NCBI GenBank assembly: GCA_013375405.1
Contig: JABXJU010000088.1
Span: forward strand, 1 to 16,715
Direction: 5' to 3'
Origin: Candidatus Helarchaeota archaeon
Lineage (GTDB): Archaea > Asgardarchaeota > Lokiarchaeia > Helarchaeales > HEL-GB-A
Length of the DNA stretch: 16,715 nucleotides
Position 1 is the first letter of the stretch. Each line of letters opens with the position of its first letter. Below are positions 4,919 to 14,220 of the stretch, one piece after another. The position numbers were made by a program, and so were the translations under genes. Below the pieces are notes generated by a model. It searched no databases. It was not told where the DNA came from and saw only the letters and a list, made by a program, of their open reading frames with translations.

Positions 4919-6055
4919 ATGGTCAAAGACTTTATTAAAGGCATTATCTACTCGCAATTCGACGAGAAAGCCGGACCAAGGGCACTTATTTGGATTCCCC
5001 CGGATTTGCCTGAAAAAGTACAAGATTTGATCAGTTTAAAAACGATAAACATTTTAGCAGGAGAAAATGGAGTGATTCCAGAATCGCTAGCTGTGGTTCC
5101 CTTTCCATCAATTAAGTTAAAGGGTTTAGTAAAATACATGGAAATTAAAGATCCAATACGTCGCGGAAAAGCCATTGATAGCTCCATTACATTACTGTTT
5201 GATGAGGTTGATGATCTCATTTTCTATAAGTATATTAAAAATTTTGAAGATCTTTGTTCGAAAACTGTGAAGGAAATTGTTAAGTTAGAGGAAAAAAAGG
5301 CACATCGTAAACAGGTCCAAGACGAAATAAACAAATTCCAATTAAATGTACAAAGTATTTTAAATGAATTGCAGGAGGAAGAAGTTTCAGTTCAAGAATC
5401 TGCTGCATTTGCCGAAGTATCTGGTGAAGGCGCCGATTTAGCGGATTATGAGTATAAATTGATTGTTTGTGGAGATCCTCATGTAGGAAAAACATCAACA
5501 ATTCTAAGATTTACCGATAACGCTTTTCGAAGAACATACATTCCAACTTTAGGTGTTAATTTAAGCAAGAAACAAATTCGATACAAAGATCTCAATGTTA
5601 AGTTTGTTCTCTGGGATATAGCAGGGCAGAGCAAATTTCAAACCATGCGGCGTCCCTTTTATAAAGGAGCCGACGGACAACTCTTGGTTTTCGACTTAAC
5701 CGATCTGGAATCTTTTGAGAATATTACTAATTGGTACAAAGATATAAAGACTAACTTAAAAGGCGAACTTCGAGGACTTATCATAGGAAATAAGAATGAT
5801 TTGGTTGATCAGAGAAAAGTAGAGGAGGAAAATATTAAAAAACTGTCACAAAAATTAGATCTCGAATTCTTTGAAATATCAGCTTTGACTGGTGAAAACA
5901 TCAATGAAGTGTTTTATAAACTTGCTGAGTTGATTTACGAAAGAAAAAATGAAAAACCCAGTAAGAAGAAGGTAGAAACAAAATCGGCAAAAAAGATGAA
6001 GAAATCAGTAAAAAAAACAGCACCTAAAAAAAAGGAATCAACTACAAGAAATTAA
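4919..6055 (+). CDS. Longin-like domain fused to a Rab-like small GTPase
   Basis: This 378-residue protein joins an N-terminal longin-like domain (about 1-125, starting FIKGIIYSQFDEKAGP) to a Ras-superfamily G domain (about 177-342) through a short coiled linker. All G motifs are intact: P-loop GDPHVGKTS at 185-193, switch I threonine T210 in YIPTLG, WDIAGQ at 232-237 with the catalytic glutamine, NKND at 291-294, and SAL at 321-323. The switch I and WDxAGQ pattern is closest to Rab/Ras GTPases. The last 35 residues are lysine-rich and lack a prenylation CaaX motif, so any membrane binding would be electrostatic. A regulatory domain fused in cis suggests self-regulation or dimerisation with the preceding longin protein; this is inferred. 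It lies 57 nt after the longin gene and 22 nt before the coiled-coil gene. Confidence 0.92.
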   Translation: MVKDFIKGIIYSQFDEKAGPRALIWIPPDLPEKVQDLISLKTINILAGENGVIPESLAVVPFPSIKLKGLVKYMEIKDPIRRGKAIDSSITLLFDEVDDLIFYKYIKNFEDLCSKTVKEIVKLEEKKAHRKQVQDEINKFQLNVQSILNELQEEEVSVQESAAFAEVSGEGADLADYEYKLIVCGDPHVGKTSTILRFTDNAFRRTYIPTLGVNLSKKQIRYKDLNVKFVLWDIAGQSKFQTMRRPFYKGADGQLLVFDLTDLESFENITNWYKDIKTNLKGELRGLIIGNKNDLVDQRKVEEENIKKLSQKLDLEFFEISALTGENINEVFYKLAELIYERKNEKPSKKKVETKSAKKMKKSVKKTAPKKKESTTRN

Positions 6056-6991: not shown

Positions 6992-8620
6992 TCAATCACT
7001 TTTGGATCGTAATTGTTTAAGAGCGTCCGCTACTTCTTCGGCATGCATCAAAGAAGGCCCACCACCCATGAAGATAGTAACACCTAACGCTTCTGCAATT
7101 TCTTCATCTGTGGCTCCGGCCTCTAAAGCTTCCACTAAATGCCATTTCATGCAGGACTTGCATCCAATCGTAACAGCGATTCCTAAGGCTATCAAACCTT
7201 TCGTTTTTGAGGAAAGTGCACCATCTTGTAATGCATCCCGATGCATTCGGACAAAATCTGTAATTAATTGTGGATTATGGTGACCGATGAGATCCATTTG
7301 GGCGGGAATATGCCCTAAAATGCCTTCTCCTCGTTTCTTAAGCATCTCAACGAACTTTACCGCTGCCTTATCTGAAACTGGCTTTGCTGTTGTAGGTGTG
7401 GTTGGCACCACCACTGCCTTTTTCACCTGATCTGGAGCGATATTGAAAAGCGGATACGGGTTTTCCAGGAGCGCTTTCATTTCCGCTAGAAAGTTTGCTG
7501 CATCTACGCCATCCATTACACGATGATCATGAGTTAAGCTCAAAATCATCATCGGGCTAATACGAATACGACCATCTTTAACAGTTGGTTTCTGGATCAT
7601 TTTCCCGATTCCTAGTATGGCTGCTTCTGGAGGATTAATAATGGGTGTGAATACCTCAATTCCAAACATCCCTAAATTAGATACGGTAAAAGTTCCCCCA
7701 GTGACTTCATCCAAAGAAAGTGTTCTATCTCTAGCTTTTTCAGCTAAACTTCTAACGATTTTCGAGATTTCCTTCAGGGATTTACTCTCAGCATCATGAA
7801 TTACGGGAACTATAAGCCCTCGATCAGTAGCAACGGCTACTCCTAAATTAAGAGTTTCTTTTAACACGATGGTATTCTCCATCATTGAAGAATTAAAGAT
7901 TGGGTATTTCTTAATGACTTCTATTACAATTTTTACAATAATATCTGTCATGGTAATCTTGAAATCTTTGTCCTTATAGAGTTCTAAGAAATGTTTCCTT
8001 AAATTGATGGATTCAGTCATATCCACTTCGGACGTATATGTTAATTGAGGGATCTCGCTCAAACTCATACTCATTTTTTTAGCGATAATTTTTCGGATAC
8101 CTTCAAGCGCAATCGATTTCCCCTCTATTTTAACAGGGGGGCCTTGAGCCAAGAAATTGATAATATCTTTCTCGATAATCCGACTATCAGGGCCGGTTCC
8201 TTGAATCTGTGTATAATCTATACCTTTTTCCCTTGCGAGTTTCCGCGCTCGAGGAGAAATTAAGATATGAGATCCGACTCCTCTCTTTGCTTCGATAGGT
8301 TTTGAGATTGAAGGAGTAGCTAGAGTAGCGGGAACTGCTGCTGCTTCTTCAATAAATGATTCAATGTCACTGACTTCTTCGCCCGGGTCCGTAATTAGGG
8401 CAATAATTCTTCCAACGGGAATGACTTGTTTTTCGGTGGCTATTATCTTATAGAGAATGCCCGATGCAGGTGCTTCTAATTTCATAGTCACCTTATCGGT
8501 TTCAATTTCGACGATCTCTTCGCCTCGTTTGATTTTATCGCCTTCTTGCTTTAACCACTTAATTATTGTGCCTTCTTCCATCGTCATACCCAATTTAGGC
8601 ATGACAAACCGGGTAACCAT
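6992..8620 (-). CDS. Dihydrolipoamide acyltransferase (E2) fused to an AhpD-like CxxC domain
   Basis: This 542-residue protein carries a complete E2 followed by an extra domain. Residues 1-78 are a lipoyl domain with the lipoylated lysine K43 in ETDKVT. Residues about 119-157 are the peripheral-subunit-binding domain (ISPRARKLA...). Residues about 165-395 are the acyltransferase core with DHRVMDG, giving catalytic H366 and D370. After a Pro/Thr linker, residues about 417-540 form a carboxymuconolactone decarboxylase/AhpD domain with C487-K-S-C490 and H494, matching the AhpD active-site spacing CxxCxxxH. The conserved glutamate 12 residues before the first cysteine is glycine (G475). No E1 or E3 gene lies in the window. 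In mycobacteria, lipoylated E2 reduces AhpD to feed a peroxiredoxin, so the fusion suggests a redox role; acyl transfer remains possible. GAGGGATGAT precedes the ATG. Confidence 0.93.
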   Translation of the reverse strand: MVTRFVMPKLGMTMEEGTIIKWLKQEGDKIKRGEEIVEIETDKVTMKLEAPASGILYKIIATEKQVIPVGRIIALITDPGEEVSDIESFIEEAAAVPATLATPSISKPIEAKRGVGSHILISPRARKLAREKGIDYTQIQGTGPDSRIIEKDIINFLAQGPPVKIEGKSIALEGIRKIIAKKMSMSLSEIPQLTYTSEVDMTESINLRKHFLELYKDKDFKITMTDIIVKIVIEVIKKYPIFNSSMMENTIVLKETLNLGVAVATDRGLIVPVIHDAESKSLKEISKIVRSLAEKARDRTLSLDEVTGGTFTVSNLGMFGIEVFTPIINPPEAAILGIGKMIQKPTVKDGRIRISPMMILSLTHDHRVMDGVDAANFLAEMKALLENPYPLFNIAPDQVKKAVVVPTTPTTAKPVSDKAAVKFVEMLKKRGEGILGHIPAQMDLIGHHNPQLITDFVRMHRDALQDGALSSKTKGLIALGIAVTIGCKSCMKWHLVEALEAGATDEEIAEALGVTIFMGGGPSLMHAEEVADALKQLRSKSD

Positions 8621-8669: not shown

Positions 8670-9110
8670 TTAAACCGATAAAACTACCGAAACCTCGGCG
8701 AAAGTGGTAGGATTCTGAACTAGGTTTACTATGAATTTTTTATACAACTCTTTTTTAGCCTTACAAACACGAGCGAAATCGTCTGGCCATAAGGCAATGA
8801 TTTCATAACTATCTTTCTTGATTTCAGTAAAAAGAAACCCAAATTGAAGATCATCGCTAGCCGCTGAAGCTAGGATGACACCCACAGTATTGGTAGCTGG
8901 TTTATCCCCTGTTGAAGATTCAATGCTTTTTATATTGCGTATAGCTTTGTAATGGGGGTGTTTCTCAATATTCCATCTTAAATCATCTATAAACCTTTTG
9001 TTTAATGGGGCTTTCCCGATAATTTCCTTTGAATCTATAAATGTGAGATTAATATCGTCACTTGATCCTAGATCTTCTCCTTCCATCGTTACATTCCATG
9101 TTTTTGCCAT
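8670..9110 (-). CDS. Uncharacterised 146-residue protein, paralogous to the C-terminus of the 10395-11399 protein
   Basis: The family is unknown to me. The whole protein aligns by eye with residues 166-310 of the protein at 10395-11399. Shared features are the opening KTW, the motif HYxxIRNxxSxxSSxGD (residues 53-69), LxFGxL (88-93), IxxLWPxxFA (104-113) and VxNPxxFAxxxVL near the end. The pattern suggests one compact alpha/beta domain. No metal site, membrane segment or signal peptide is visible. GGAAGGA just upstream supports the ATG at 9110. It lies 49 nt upstream of the E2-AhpD gene on the same strand, so the two may be co-transcribed. The conserved polar HY..RN..S..SS.GD block is the likely functional site, which is inference. 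Confidence 0.75.
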   Translation of the reverse strand: MAKTWNVTMEGEDLGSSDDINLTFIDSKEIIGKAPLNKRFIDDLRWNIEKHPHYKAIRNIKSIESSTGDKPATNTVGVILASAASDDLQFGFLFTEIKKDSYEIIALWPDDFARVCKAKKELYKKFIVNLVQNPTTFAEVSVVLSV

Positions 9111-10394: not shown

Positions 10395-11399
10395 ATGACC
10401 CTTGATGAGTGCAAAAGAATCGCAAAAGAGGCAGCACAAGAAACAGATTTGATAAAACAGGGTGTGGCATTTAATAAAGCCAGCCAATGTTATAAAAAAA
10501 ATGATGATGCTGATCAATATCAAGCGATGAAAAAGAAAGCCATTCAAATTTTTCAAAAAAAGGCAGAAAAATTCGATGATCCATATGAAAAGAGTCTATT
10601 CCATTCATATGAAGCACTGTGTTGGATATGTCTTGGGGAGTTAAAGAAAGCTGAAGAACTTGTCGATGAATTATTCAAATTGAATGATACGGAATCAGGA
10701 TCCAAAATATCCCCTATAGTTAATTTTACAAAACATCTGGCCATCAAAGAGGTGGAGAAGGCACAAGAGTTGTGGAAAAATATCCATCAATTTTTTTCCC
10801 AAGGAATCATCGAATTGTTGGAAGAAGCCTTTATTGCTATTAATCCTTCCTCAGAGCCGCCGGTTGTCGAAAAATTACCAAAATTTTATAAAACTTGGAC
10901 GGTGTTATTAGCGGGAAAAGATTCAACTGACCTTCAGAAAGATTGGACTCTTGTCTTTTATGATGCCCACGACCTCTTTGAGGAGCAAGTGGTTCTAAAA
11001 AAGAACTATTTAGAGGATTTACTCGCCCAGGTAAAACAACTCCAACACTATCACTTCATCCGCAACATGCGAAGTGTGACTTCATCCAGTGGAGATGATC
11101 TATCTAAGAAAGCGTTATTCATAATCCTTGGCACCAGCGCTGAGAAAAAATTAAAATTTGGTATGCTCTTAGGATCTCTCACAGAAGGCGGCGTTCATAT
11201 CTTTGGACTCTGGCCTGAAGCTTTTGCCCATGCTGTATATACCGATGAAAGTATAATTGGAGCATTTATAACCCGAAGCGTGAAAAATCCTGACTGGTTT
11301 GCCGATTTGAATGTACTGGCATTTTTAGCCCCTGAGGGGGAGCCACAGAAAGATGAATTACCTGAAAGTGAGGAAACGCTTCCTGGGTATTTCACTTAA
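10395..11399 (+). CDS. TPR-like protein with C-terminal uncharacterised domain shared with the 8670-9110 gene
   Basis: This 334-residue protein has an N-terminal all-helical region (1 to about 150) resembling TPR or alpha-SNAP-like helical pairs (AFNKASQCYKK, LFHSYEALCWICLGELKKAEELV). A proline-containing linker follows, then a domain at 166-310 homologous to the whole 146-residue protein at 8670-9110, with KTW, HYxxIRN, SSxGDD, KFGMLLG, FGLWPEAFA and VKNPDWFA. The tail after 310 is acidic and probably disordered. AGGAGGA just upstream makes the ATG certain. There is no signal peptide or membrane segment. TPR-like helices usually bind proteins, so it may recruit a partner to the shared domain; that is inference. 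It is convergent with the CPBP gene, with 16 nt between stops. Confidence 0.8.
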   Translation: MTLDECKRIAKEAAQETDLIKQGVAFNKASQCYKKNDDADQYQAMKKKAIQIFQKKAEKFDDPYEKSLFHSYEALCWICLGELKKAEELVDELFKLNDTESGSKISPIVNFTKHLAIKEVEKAQELWKNIHQFFSQGIIELLEEAFIAINPSSEPPVVEKLPKFYKTWTVLLAGKDSTDLQKDWTLVFYDAHDLFEEQVVLKKNYLEDLLAQVKQLQHYHFIRNMRSVTSSSGDDLSKKALFIILGTSAEKKLKFGMLLGSLTEGGVHIFGLWPEAFAHAVYTDESIIGAFITRSVKNPDWFADLNVLAFLAPEGEPQKDELPESEETLPGYFT

Positions 11400-13280: not shown

Positions 13281-13364
13281 GGATTTCAAATTAATTGAAG
13301 ATGGGATTGTTTGAGGGATGAATCTTTGAACAACACCTTTAAAATTAAATTAAGGAGGAATGAA

Positions 13365-13679
13365 ATGGTAACCTATATATCTTATTGGGAGCTAAATCCA
13401 GACTTAGATCCTTCTGAAATAGCCGATGTCGCACAGAAAATCATTTCGAGAGGTCTTTACCCAGCTGAAGGAGTAAAAGAACTTGCTTGGTACGTTTCTA
13501 CGGATTATTGGGGCGTATCCATTTCGGAAGCTGAAAGTGAGGAAGCTATAATGAACGAAGTTAATATGTGGAGAATTGCTAAGCCAGGCATGATACGGGT
13601 CTTTAAAAGTGCGATAGCAATGAAATCTGCTGATGCAATACCGCTGATGGTTAAATTGGCTAAGAAGGTTAAAGGATAA
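13365..13679 (+). CDS. Small DUF3303-like protein, copy 1
   Basis: This is a protein of 104 residues, starting at the ATG at 13365 because AAGGAGG lies at 13352-13358; an open frame exists upstream to 13311 but lacks support. It begins with MVTYISYWELNPDLDP and has a central TDYWGVSISEAESEEA and a conserved W-R-AKPG segment. The beta-alpha-beta layout suggests a ferredoxin-like dimeric alpha/beta-barrel domain, similar to DUF3303 proteins. No enzymatic residues are established. It is followed by a paralogue sharing 48 of 96 aligned residues. The function is unknown. Its promoter and leader are also duplicated. Confidence 0.75.
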   Translation: MVTYISYWELNPDLDPSEIADVAQKIISRGLYPAEGVKELAWYVSTDYWGVSISEAESEEAIMNEVNMWRIAKPGMIRVFKSAIAMKSADAIPLMVKLAKKVKG

Positions 13680-13908: not shown

Positions 13909-14220
13909 GTGTTGTTTATCACATACTACGAGCTAAATCCTGACTTTGATCCTGCGGAATTAACTGAGGTTGCAATGAATATCATTAAAAAAGGCATGCT
14001 CAATCCAGAAGGGACAAAAGACCTTGGCAATTATCTTAGCCCAGATTATTGGGGAATAGCAATAGCAGAAATTGACAATGAAGAAGCTGCTATAATTTCC
14101 GCAAATACGTGGAGACTTGCTAAGCCAGGTATCTTCAAAGTCTTAAAAAGCGCGGTAGCAAAGAAAATGGAAGAAATACTGCCCATTATTGTTTCCCTGA
14201 AAAAGAAATTCAAAGGATAA
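13909..14220 (+). CDS. Small DUF3303-like protein, copy 2
   Basis: This is a 103-residue paralogue of the preceding gene, aligning without gaps from ELNP to the C-terminal KG. The identical core elements are ELNPD.DP, SxDYWG, EEA, N.WR.AKPG and KSA.A. It starts with GTG, fixed by AAAGGAGGT 7 nt upstream. The duplicate has diverged to about half identity, yet promoter spacing and leader length are kept, which suggests both copies are expressed and selected. The acidic and aromatic surface residues differ, so the two could form a heterodimer or serve different ligands; that is inference. There is no sign of decay. Confidence 0.75.
   Translation: MLFITYYELNPDFDPAELTEVAMNIIKKGMLNPEGTKDLGNYLSPDYWGIAIAEIDNEEAAIISANTWRLAKPGIFKVLKSAVAKKMEEILPIIVSLKKKFKG

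Follow-up and report, generated by a model that had tools for sequence, protein, structure and literature searches.

Lipoyl-linked redox relays and the AhpD family

The closest described counterpart of the gene considered here is the peroxide relay of Mycobacterium tuberculosis, for which the available part of PMC12028322 gives the electron order NADH, Lpd, DlaT, AhpD, AhpC and peroxide. In Corynebacterium, AhpD is reduced by a lipoamide-containing E2, and an AhpD-supported OsmC is described (PMC8945050, in excerpt). AhpD itself employs a proton relay of Glu118, Cys130, His132, Cys133 and His137, of which the two cysteines and the last histidine are the most essential (PMC3141380, in excerpt). 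Selenocysteine (CxxU) forms of CMD/AhpD-like proteins also exist and agree with redox work of this family (excerpts of PMC13188914). Lipoylation in archaea has been tied to aerobic life (PMC3904984, in excerpt), and Asgard archaea carry LipS1/S2 more often than LipA (PMC10332631, in excerpt).

The window, i.e. the whole stretch of 16,715 nucleotides analysed here from a Candidatus Helarchaeota archaeon (contig JABXJU010000088.1), encodes an E2 acyltransferase with a CMD/AhpD-like domain at its C-terminus. Like the M. tuberculosis Lpd-DlaT(E2)-AhpD-AhpC system, the fusion presumably combines a lipoylated E2 with a CxxC partner of the AhpD family, with an E3 in the genome; the mycobacterial relay consists of separate proteins, whereas the Helarchaeal form is a single chain. 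The kind of relay is thus already known, while for the single-chain form and for the related Asgard gene cluster described below no earlier description was found: the titles and abstracts searched, a literature with subscription papers mostly outside it, report neither an E2-AhpD fusion nor an Asgard E2-LplA-CMD cluster.

Anatomy and conservation of the E2-CMD fusion

The fusion gene (6992..8620, minus strand, stop included) was delimited from its reading frame, domains and homologues; it begins with ATG at 8620 and runs uninterrupted for 542 codons. The initial annotation of one frame with four domains is borne out, since Biotin_lipoyl, E3_binding, 2-oxoacid_dh and CMD follow one another in that order, each above its Pfam cut-off. 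The lipoyl domain (residues 5-76, 8393..8608; PF00364, 65.8 bits against a cut-off of 22.1) carries the predicted lipoyl-lysine K43 (8492-8494), and is followed by a peripheral subunit (E3)-binding domain (residues 119-153, 8162..8266; PF02817, 52.2 bits, cut-off 23.7) and the acyltransferase core (residues 168-391, 7448..8119; PF00198, 284.1 bits, cut-off 23), in which the core motif reads DHRVMDG (H366, D370). A linker (residues 392-417, 7370..7447), with pLDDT below 50 at residues 402-414, leads into the CMD/AhpD-like domain (residues 418-542, of which Pfam covers 452-532; 6995..7369), with its redox motif C487-x-x-C490-x-x-x-H494 at 7139..7162; all these features lie on the minus strand. 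Judged by its lipoyl-lysine site and DHRxxDG core, the window protein is a 2-oxoacid dehydrogenase E2. The AF2 model of the whole fusion is mediocre (mean pLDDT 69.2, pTM 0.46) and therefore no placement of the domains is claimed.

With the last 143 residues as query, 16 proteins were matched, comprising the window's own, 14 further full-length fusions of 540-561 residues and one 333-residue piece with core and CMD; the named hosts are Candidatus Helarchaeota (six) and Promethearchaeota (one), and three of the proteins (P0003-P0005) are near-identical to one another. Alignment of the 15 full-length fusions shows Lys43, Ser314, His366, Asp370, Gly371, Cys487, Cys490 and His494 to be constant throughout, among them the lysine and the two cysteines singled out initially for lipoylation and electron transfer, while the linker after the core varies from 26 to 43 residues. 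Among the matches listed for 227 genomes of the phylum, full-length fusions occur only in G001 (Hel_GB_A, locus L001) and G002 (Hel_GB_B, locus L002), so that the absence from all relatives that had been named as grounds for refutation does not apply. The other such ground, two genes joined by an assembly error, is ruled out by the 14 other full-length copies on separate contigs. The E2-CMD fusion is real and conserved.

Several other genes of the window may be recorded here. Two related proteins without a Pfam match are encoded near the fusion, at 8670-9110 and 10395-11399; the former ends 49 bases before the fusion start on the same strand, and in L001 a relative is found next to lipoyl synthase. 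The reading frame at 2-1051, which we take to be a molybdopterin formylmethanofuran-type dehydrogenase subunit, has relatives no more than a few kb from E1 alpha in five other Asgard loci (L121, L122, L123, L125 and L132), and is followed at 1109-1939 by a gene for an F420-dependent methylene-H4MPT dehydrogenase. The gene at 4919-6055 encodes a Ras-family GTPase domain (residues 180-340) behind some 175 N-terminal residues without a Pfam match, and 13311-13679 and 13909-14220 encode a tandem pair of related small proteins, the former without a match in Pfam or NCBIfam.

The CMD domain and its active site

Membership of the C-terminal domain in the CMD/AhpD-like superfamily is indicated by family score, fold and the CxxCxxxH motif, which is found in all 38 aligned CMDs; both PF02627 and the AhpD core domain model TIGR00778 score above cut-off, and TIGR00777, the model of AhpD proper, is absent from the 19 families that match the fusion at E 0.001. 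Short CMD-family proteins, lpg0406 (5dik) and TM1620 (1p8c, 1vke), have the same fold, the former with 37-38% identity to the fusion CMD, but these are free-standing whereas the fusion CMD is tethered to an E2. For the long AhpD proteins VIA-align listed no strong match, and this was not counted as evidence. NCBIfam models of arsenic-linked CMDs match weakly, with 51.9 and 41.1 bits below cut-offs of 120 and 510.

The five-residue relay of AhpD is retained only in part. When its positions are mapped by spacing and by alignment among the CMDs, the window protein has Gly475, Cys487, Ser489, Cys490 and His494, i.e. three of the five. Gly475 (7196..7198, minus strand; position C487 minus 12) takes the place of the proton-relay glutamate, mycobacterial Glu118. 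This glutamate is missing in 11 of the 15 fusions (ten Ala, one Gly) and kept in four; in alignment A2 it is present in 34 of 38 CMDs, and three of the four exceptions are fusions. Serine at position 489 replaces AhpD His132 in all 15. By its residues, then, the fusion CMD keeps the dithiol and the histidine without the residues that are tied to peroxidase chemistry. Loss of the relay glutamate makes direct peroxidase activity doubtful, and a thiol-disulfide relay appears favoured over direct reduction of peroxide by this domain.

E2, lipoate-protein ligase and CMD genes in other Asgard archaea

For a survey of the phylum, 67 E2 rows scoring 200 bits or more, from 61 genomes, were taken from the phylum listing and compared with the listed CMD rows; the two fusions were excluded, as were partial rows from G084, G189 and G209. 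At least 32 of these 67 E2 places are followed within 12 kb by a CMD in the same orientation (median distance 1.8 kb), a lower bound in that it counts the matches listed and some contigs are short; one missed case is L114 of G179, where the E2 and the following CMD lie about 110-120 bases apart. At the other 35 of the 67 no CMD is nearby among the matches listed, which counts against a relay.

Forty Asgard E2 loci of 5.6-20 kb were then considered, half of them selected chiefly on E2 rank, with a few included for their interest, and the other 20 because the contig carried a CMD; the CMD genes were located by six-frame search, and some overlap antisense reading frames. A CMD lies downstream of E2 in 30 of the 40, with a lipoate-protein ligase between the two in 29, a gap of at most 120 bases between ligase and CMD in 27, and an E1 also present in 27. 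The resulting E1a-E1b-E2-LplA-CMD cluster resembles the fusion in having a related E2 and a CMD placed beside E2 and a lipoylation gene, but its CMD, about 115 residues long, is encoded on its own and keeps the relay glutamate (18 of 18 cluster rows in A2). In many of these clusters the CMD is followed, on the opposite strand, by genes for zinc-type alcohol dehydrogenases.

A recognised E3 is found in none of the 30 loci with CMD versus four of the ten without, in a sample of which 20 of 40 loci were picked for their CMD; the other 20 loci alone give none of ten versus four of ten. This alternation of CMD and E3 across Asgard loci is suggestive but not proven. Two of the four E3-holding loci encode E2-E3 fusions, at L126 6769-9519 (916 residues) and L131 8731-11052 (773 residues, with masked stretches), which like the E2-CMD fusion carry a dihydrolipoyl-oxidising partner on the C-terminus of E2, but with a flavoprotein E3 as that partner in place of a CMD. 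Matches to PF02852 (Pyr_redox_dim), not all of which need be E3, occur in all nine genomes searched, including the cluster genomes G179, G177, G185 and G186. Beyond the Asgard sample, the genome scan gave 78 more E2 loci (L003-L080; 77 labelled bacterial, L011 looking like a contig of G162), none with a CMD in the stretch read, and the E2-CMD link is therefore not general.

The rest of the complex in the fusion genomes

Partner genes were read in the two related genomes with the fusion, G001 and G002. Genes for E1 alpha and E1 beta are adjacent in both, split over two contig ends in G001, and the E1 family models were run on the G002 pair; a separate dihydrolipoyl dehydrogenase is present in G001 (TIGR01350, 493.9 bits, cut-off 408.8) and, by PF02852 and similarity, in G002. 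E1 and E3 partners for the E2 are thus found in both genomes, on contigs apart from the fusion, a separation that counts against a relay. A fusion without a dehydrogenase complex, considered because no E1 lies near L001 or L002, was dropped on account of the E1 genes on other contigs.

Lipoylation genes are found closer at hand. In L002 the fusion is followed after 15 bases by a lipoyl synthase gene (TIGR00510, 336 bits, cut-off 310.25), and in L001 another, with 303 bits to the L002 protein, lies about 2.5 kb from the fusion on the other strand; none was seen in the window. A PF03099 ligase is present in G001, and the lack of a match in G002 speaks against a relay. Next to E1, both G001 and G002 have genes for zinc-type alcohol dehydrogenases; with such neighbours an acetoin- or butanediol-linked substrate would fit as well as pyruvate.

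Any final electron acceptor must be a separate protein, OsmC being matched in both genomes (four times in G001, three times in G002) and AhpC/TSA in G001 only (twice). A search of eight genomes gave no AhpC/TSA match in two of them, G002 and G179, and no peroxidase gene was recognised among the ten window proteins scanned; both results weigh against a relay. The search for partner genes proposed with the initial annotation thus succeeds for E3 in both genomes and for AhpC/TSA in G001, but fails for AhpC/TSA in G002, and the description of the relay as self-contained has to be given up, as E1 alpha and beta, E3 and OsmC are separate genes in G001 and G002. Elsewhere in G001 (L158, 1811-7112), an AhpC/TSA-type gene lies within about 5 kb of what we take to be a GcvH-like lipoyl carrier gene and two short, presumably thioredoxin-like, reading frames, these names being assigned by eye; this is perhaps another lipoyl-linked redox group.

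A second fusion lineage and the origins of the fusion

On plasmid pHY1 of Methylovirgula sp. HY1 the genes for E1 alpha, E1 beta, E2 and CMD stand in a row, with E2 and CMD overlapping by 4 bases, and no E3 is annotated in the 17.5-kb stretch. With the neighbouring Methylovirgula E2 and CMD genes joined as probe, three further E2-CMD fusions were matched (P0017-P0019), which have the same four-domain order; P0018 shows 31% identity to the window protein over nearly the whole length. The cores of these three read DHRV(I/V)YG, without the usual Asp, and the CMDs of P0017-P0020 keep the relay glutamate. P0020 (296 residues, from a 2-kb contig) has lipoyl and CMD domains and no Pfam E2 core; it might be a mini-form that occurs in nature, or else the result of a deletion or of assembly. 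For the class to which G228 belongs, 385 genomes were scanned with at most three candidates scored per genome; none of the matches listed aligns past about residue 408 of P0018, and more bacterial fusions were thus not found there.

An E2 tree built from 72 rows, including 17 taken from the 77 non-Asgard loci, unites all 16 fusion rows in a single clade (100/100); the E2s of G082 and G162 stand next to it (97/88), the G162 row on a long branch. In the CMD tree the fusions (92/77) and the cluster CMDs (96/96) each group, apart from one another; few columns enter this tree, and a union of the two is not rejected (p-AU 0.184). The tree does not establish a shared origin of fusion and cluster CMDs, and Helarchaea may either have joined an inherited neighbour to E2 or have taken up another CMD. 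A wider CMD tree places P0017-P0020 with the unfused Methylovirgula CMD (85/97) and the 16 Helarchaeal CMDs in another group (100/99). A single clade of Helarchaeal and Methylovirgula-like fused CMDs is rejected at a p-AU of 0.0087, a value that rests on one model, few columns and long branches; E2 and CMD have therefore most likely been joined at least twice. The proposed E2 and AhpD-family pairing and its mycobacterial parallel hold up, strengthened by these neighbourhoods and a second, separate fusion.

Proposed function and alternatives

The protein probably, by somewhat better than even chances, serves as the E2 core in a 2-oxoacid dehydrogenase complex of Helarchaea, one of pyruvate or acetoin type, and carries a tethered lipoyl-dependent thiol oxidoreductase, its CMD domain apparently taking electrons from the lipoyl arm much as in the mycobacterial Lpd-E2-AhpD relay. 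Such a built-in lipoyl-to-dithiol branch is suggested by the mycobacterial electron order, the AhpD-supported OsmC and what is described of archaeal lipoylation (PMC12028322, PMC8945050, PMC3904984 and PMC10332631, each in excerpt). Lys43 would be lipoylated, and its arm would be reduced by E1, or by E3 running from NADH; the arm would then visit the C-terminal CMD and reduce the C487-C490 disulfide, and the dithiol would hand its electrons on to a separate protein, the likeliest candidate being a thiol peroxidase of the OsmC or AhpC type. Fusion would give the partners a one-to-one ratio and hold them within reach of each other; in many other Asgard archaea it is only the genes that stay together.

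An alternative, rather doubtful but suggested by the alternation of CMD and E3, is that the CMD substitutes for E3, so that dihydrolipoyl groups formed in catalysis would be reoxidised via the CMD with electrons going to a thiol acceptor instead of NAD. The two E2-E3 fusions that mirror the E2-CMD fusion and the Methylovirgula stretch with no annotated E3 are in keeping with such a role, but good E3 genes elsewhere in G001 and G002, the PF02852 matches in every genome searched and the strong E3-binding domain kept in the fusion are not; the alternation itself comes from related loci, several of them short and half selected for CMD, and the other half alone gives none of ten versus four of ten. 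In an extended form, which we consider unlikely, the CMD would have replaced E3 as the working partner in a large Asgard group, with a non-NAD acceptor, and Helarchaea would have fixed the swap by fusion to E2.

The CMD might instead be a protective or structural appendage that arranges the E2 trimers through its rings or protects lipoyl thiols against oxidation or arsenicals, and that hands no electrons to a client. AhpD-like proteins do form three-fold-symmetric rings (PMC3141380, in excerpt), and the loss of the relay glutamate in most fusions and the weak arsenic-linked matches below cut-off point the same way, but both cysteines and the histidine are invariant across the aligned rows and the recurring identified neighbours are dehydrogenase and lipoylation genes, which leaves such an appendage quite improbable. 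An accidental fusion that brought in carboxymuconolactone decarboxylase, or some other CMD activity without a redox role, has the shared Pfam family in its favour; PcaC identity is ruled out by score (TIGR02425, 19.3 bits against a cut-off of 155.7), gamma-CMD enzymes are given in the available part of PMC3141380 as lacking the CxxC motif, and two separate fusions and a gene cluster speak against accident, so that this is the least credible explanation by far.

Significance

The mycobacterial relay couples central metabolism to peroxide defence, and the Helarchaeal fusion is a ready construct for measuring electron transfer from a lipoyl arm to a CxxC site. The CMD/E3 alternation raises the question of how Asgard archaea dispose of 2-oxoacid electrons; if a CMD did take the part of E3, the output of a 2-oxoacid dehydrogenase complex would be a thiol, either replacing NADH or alongside it. 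A natural single-chain form, a conserved Asgard gene cluster and a second, separately arisen fusion together indicate that coupling of E2 to CMD has been selected more than once.
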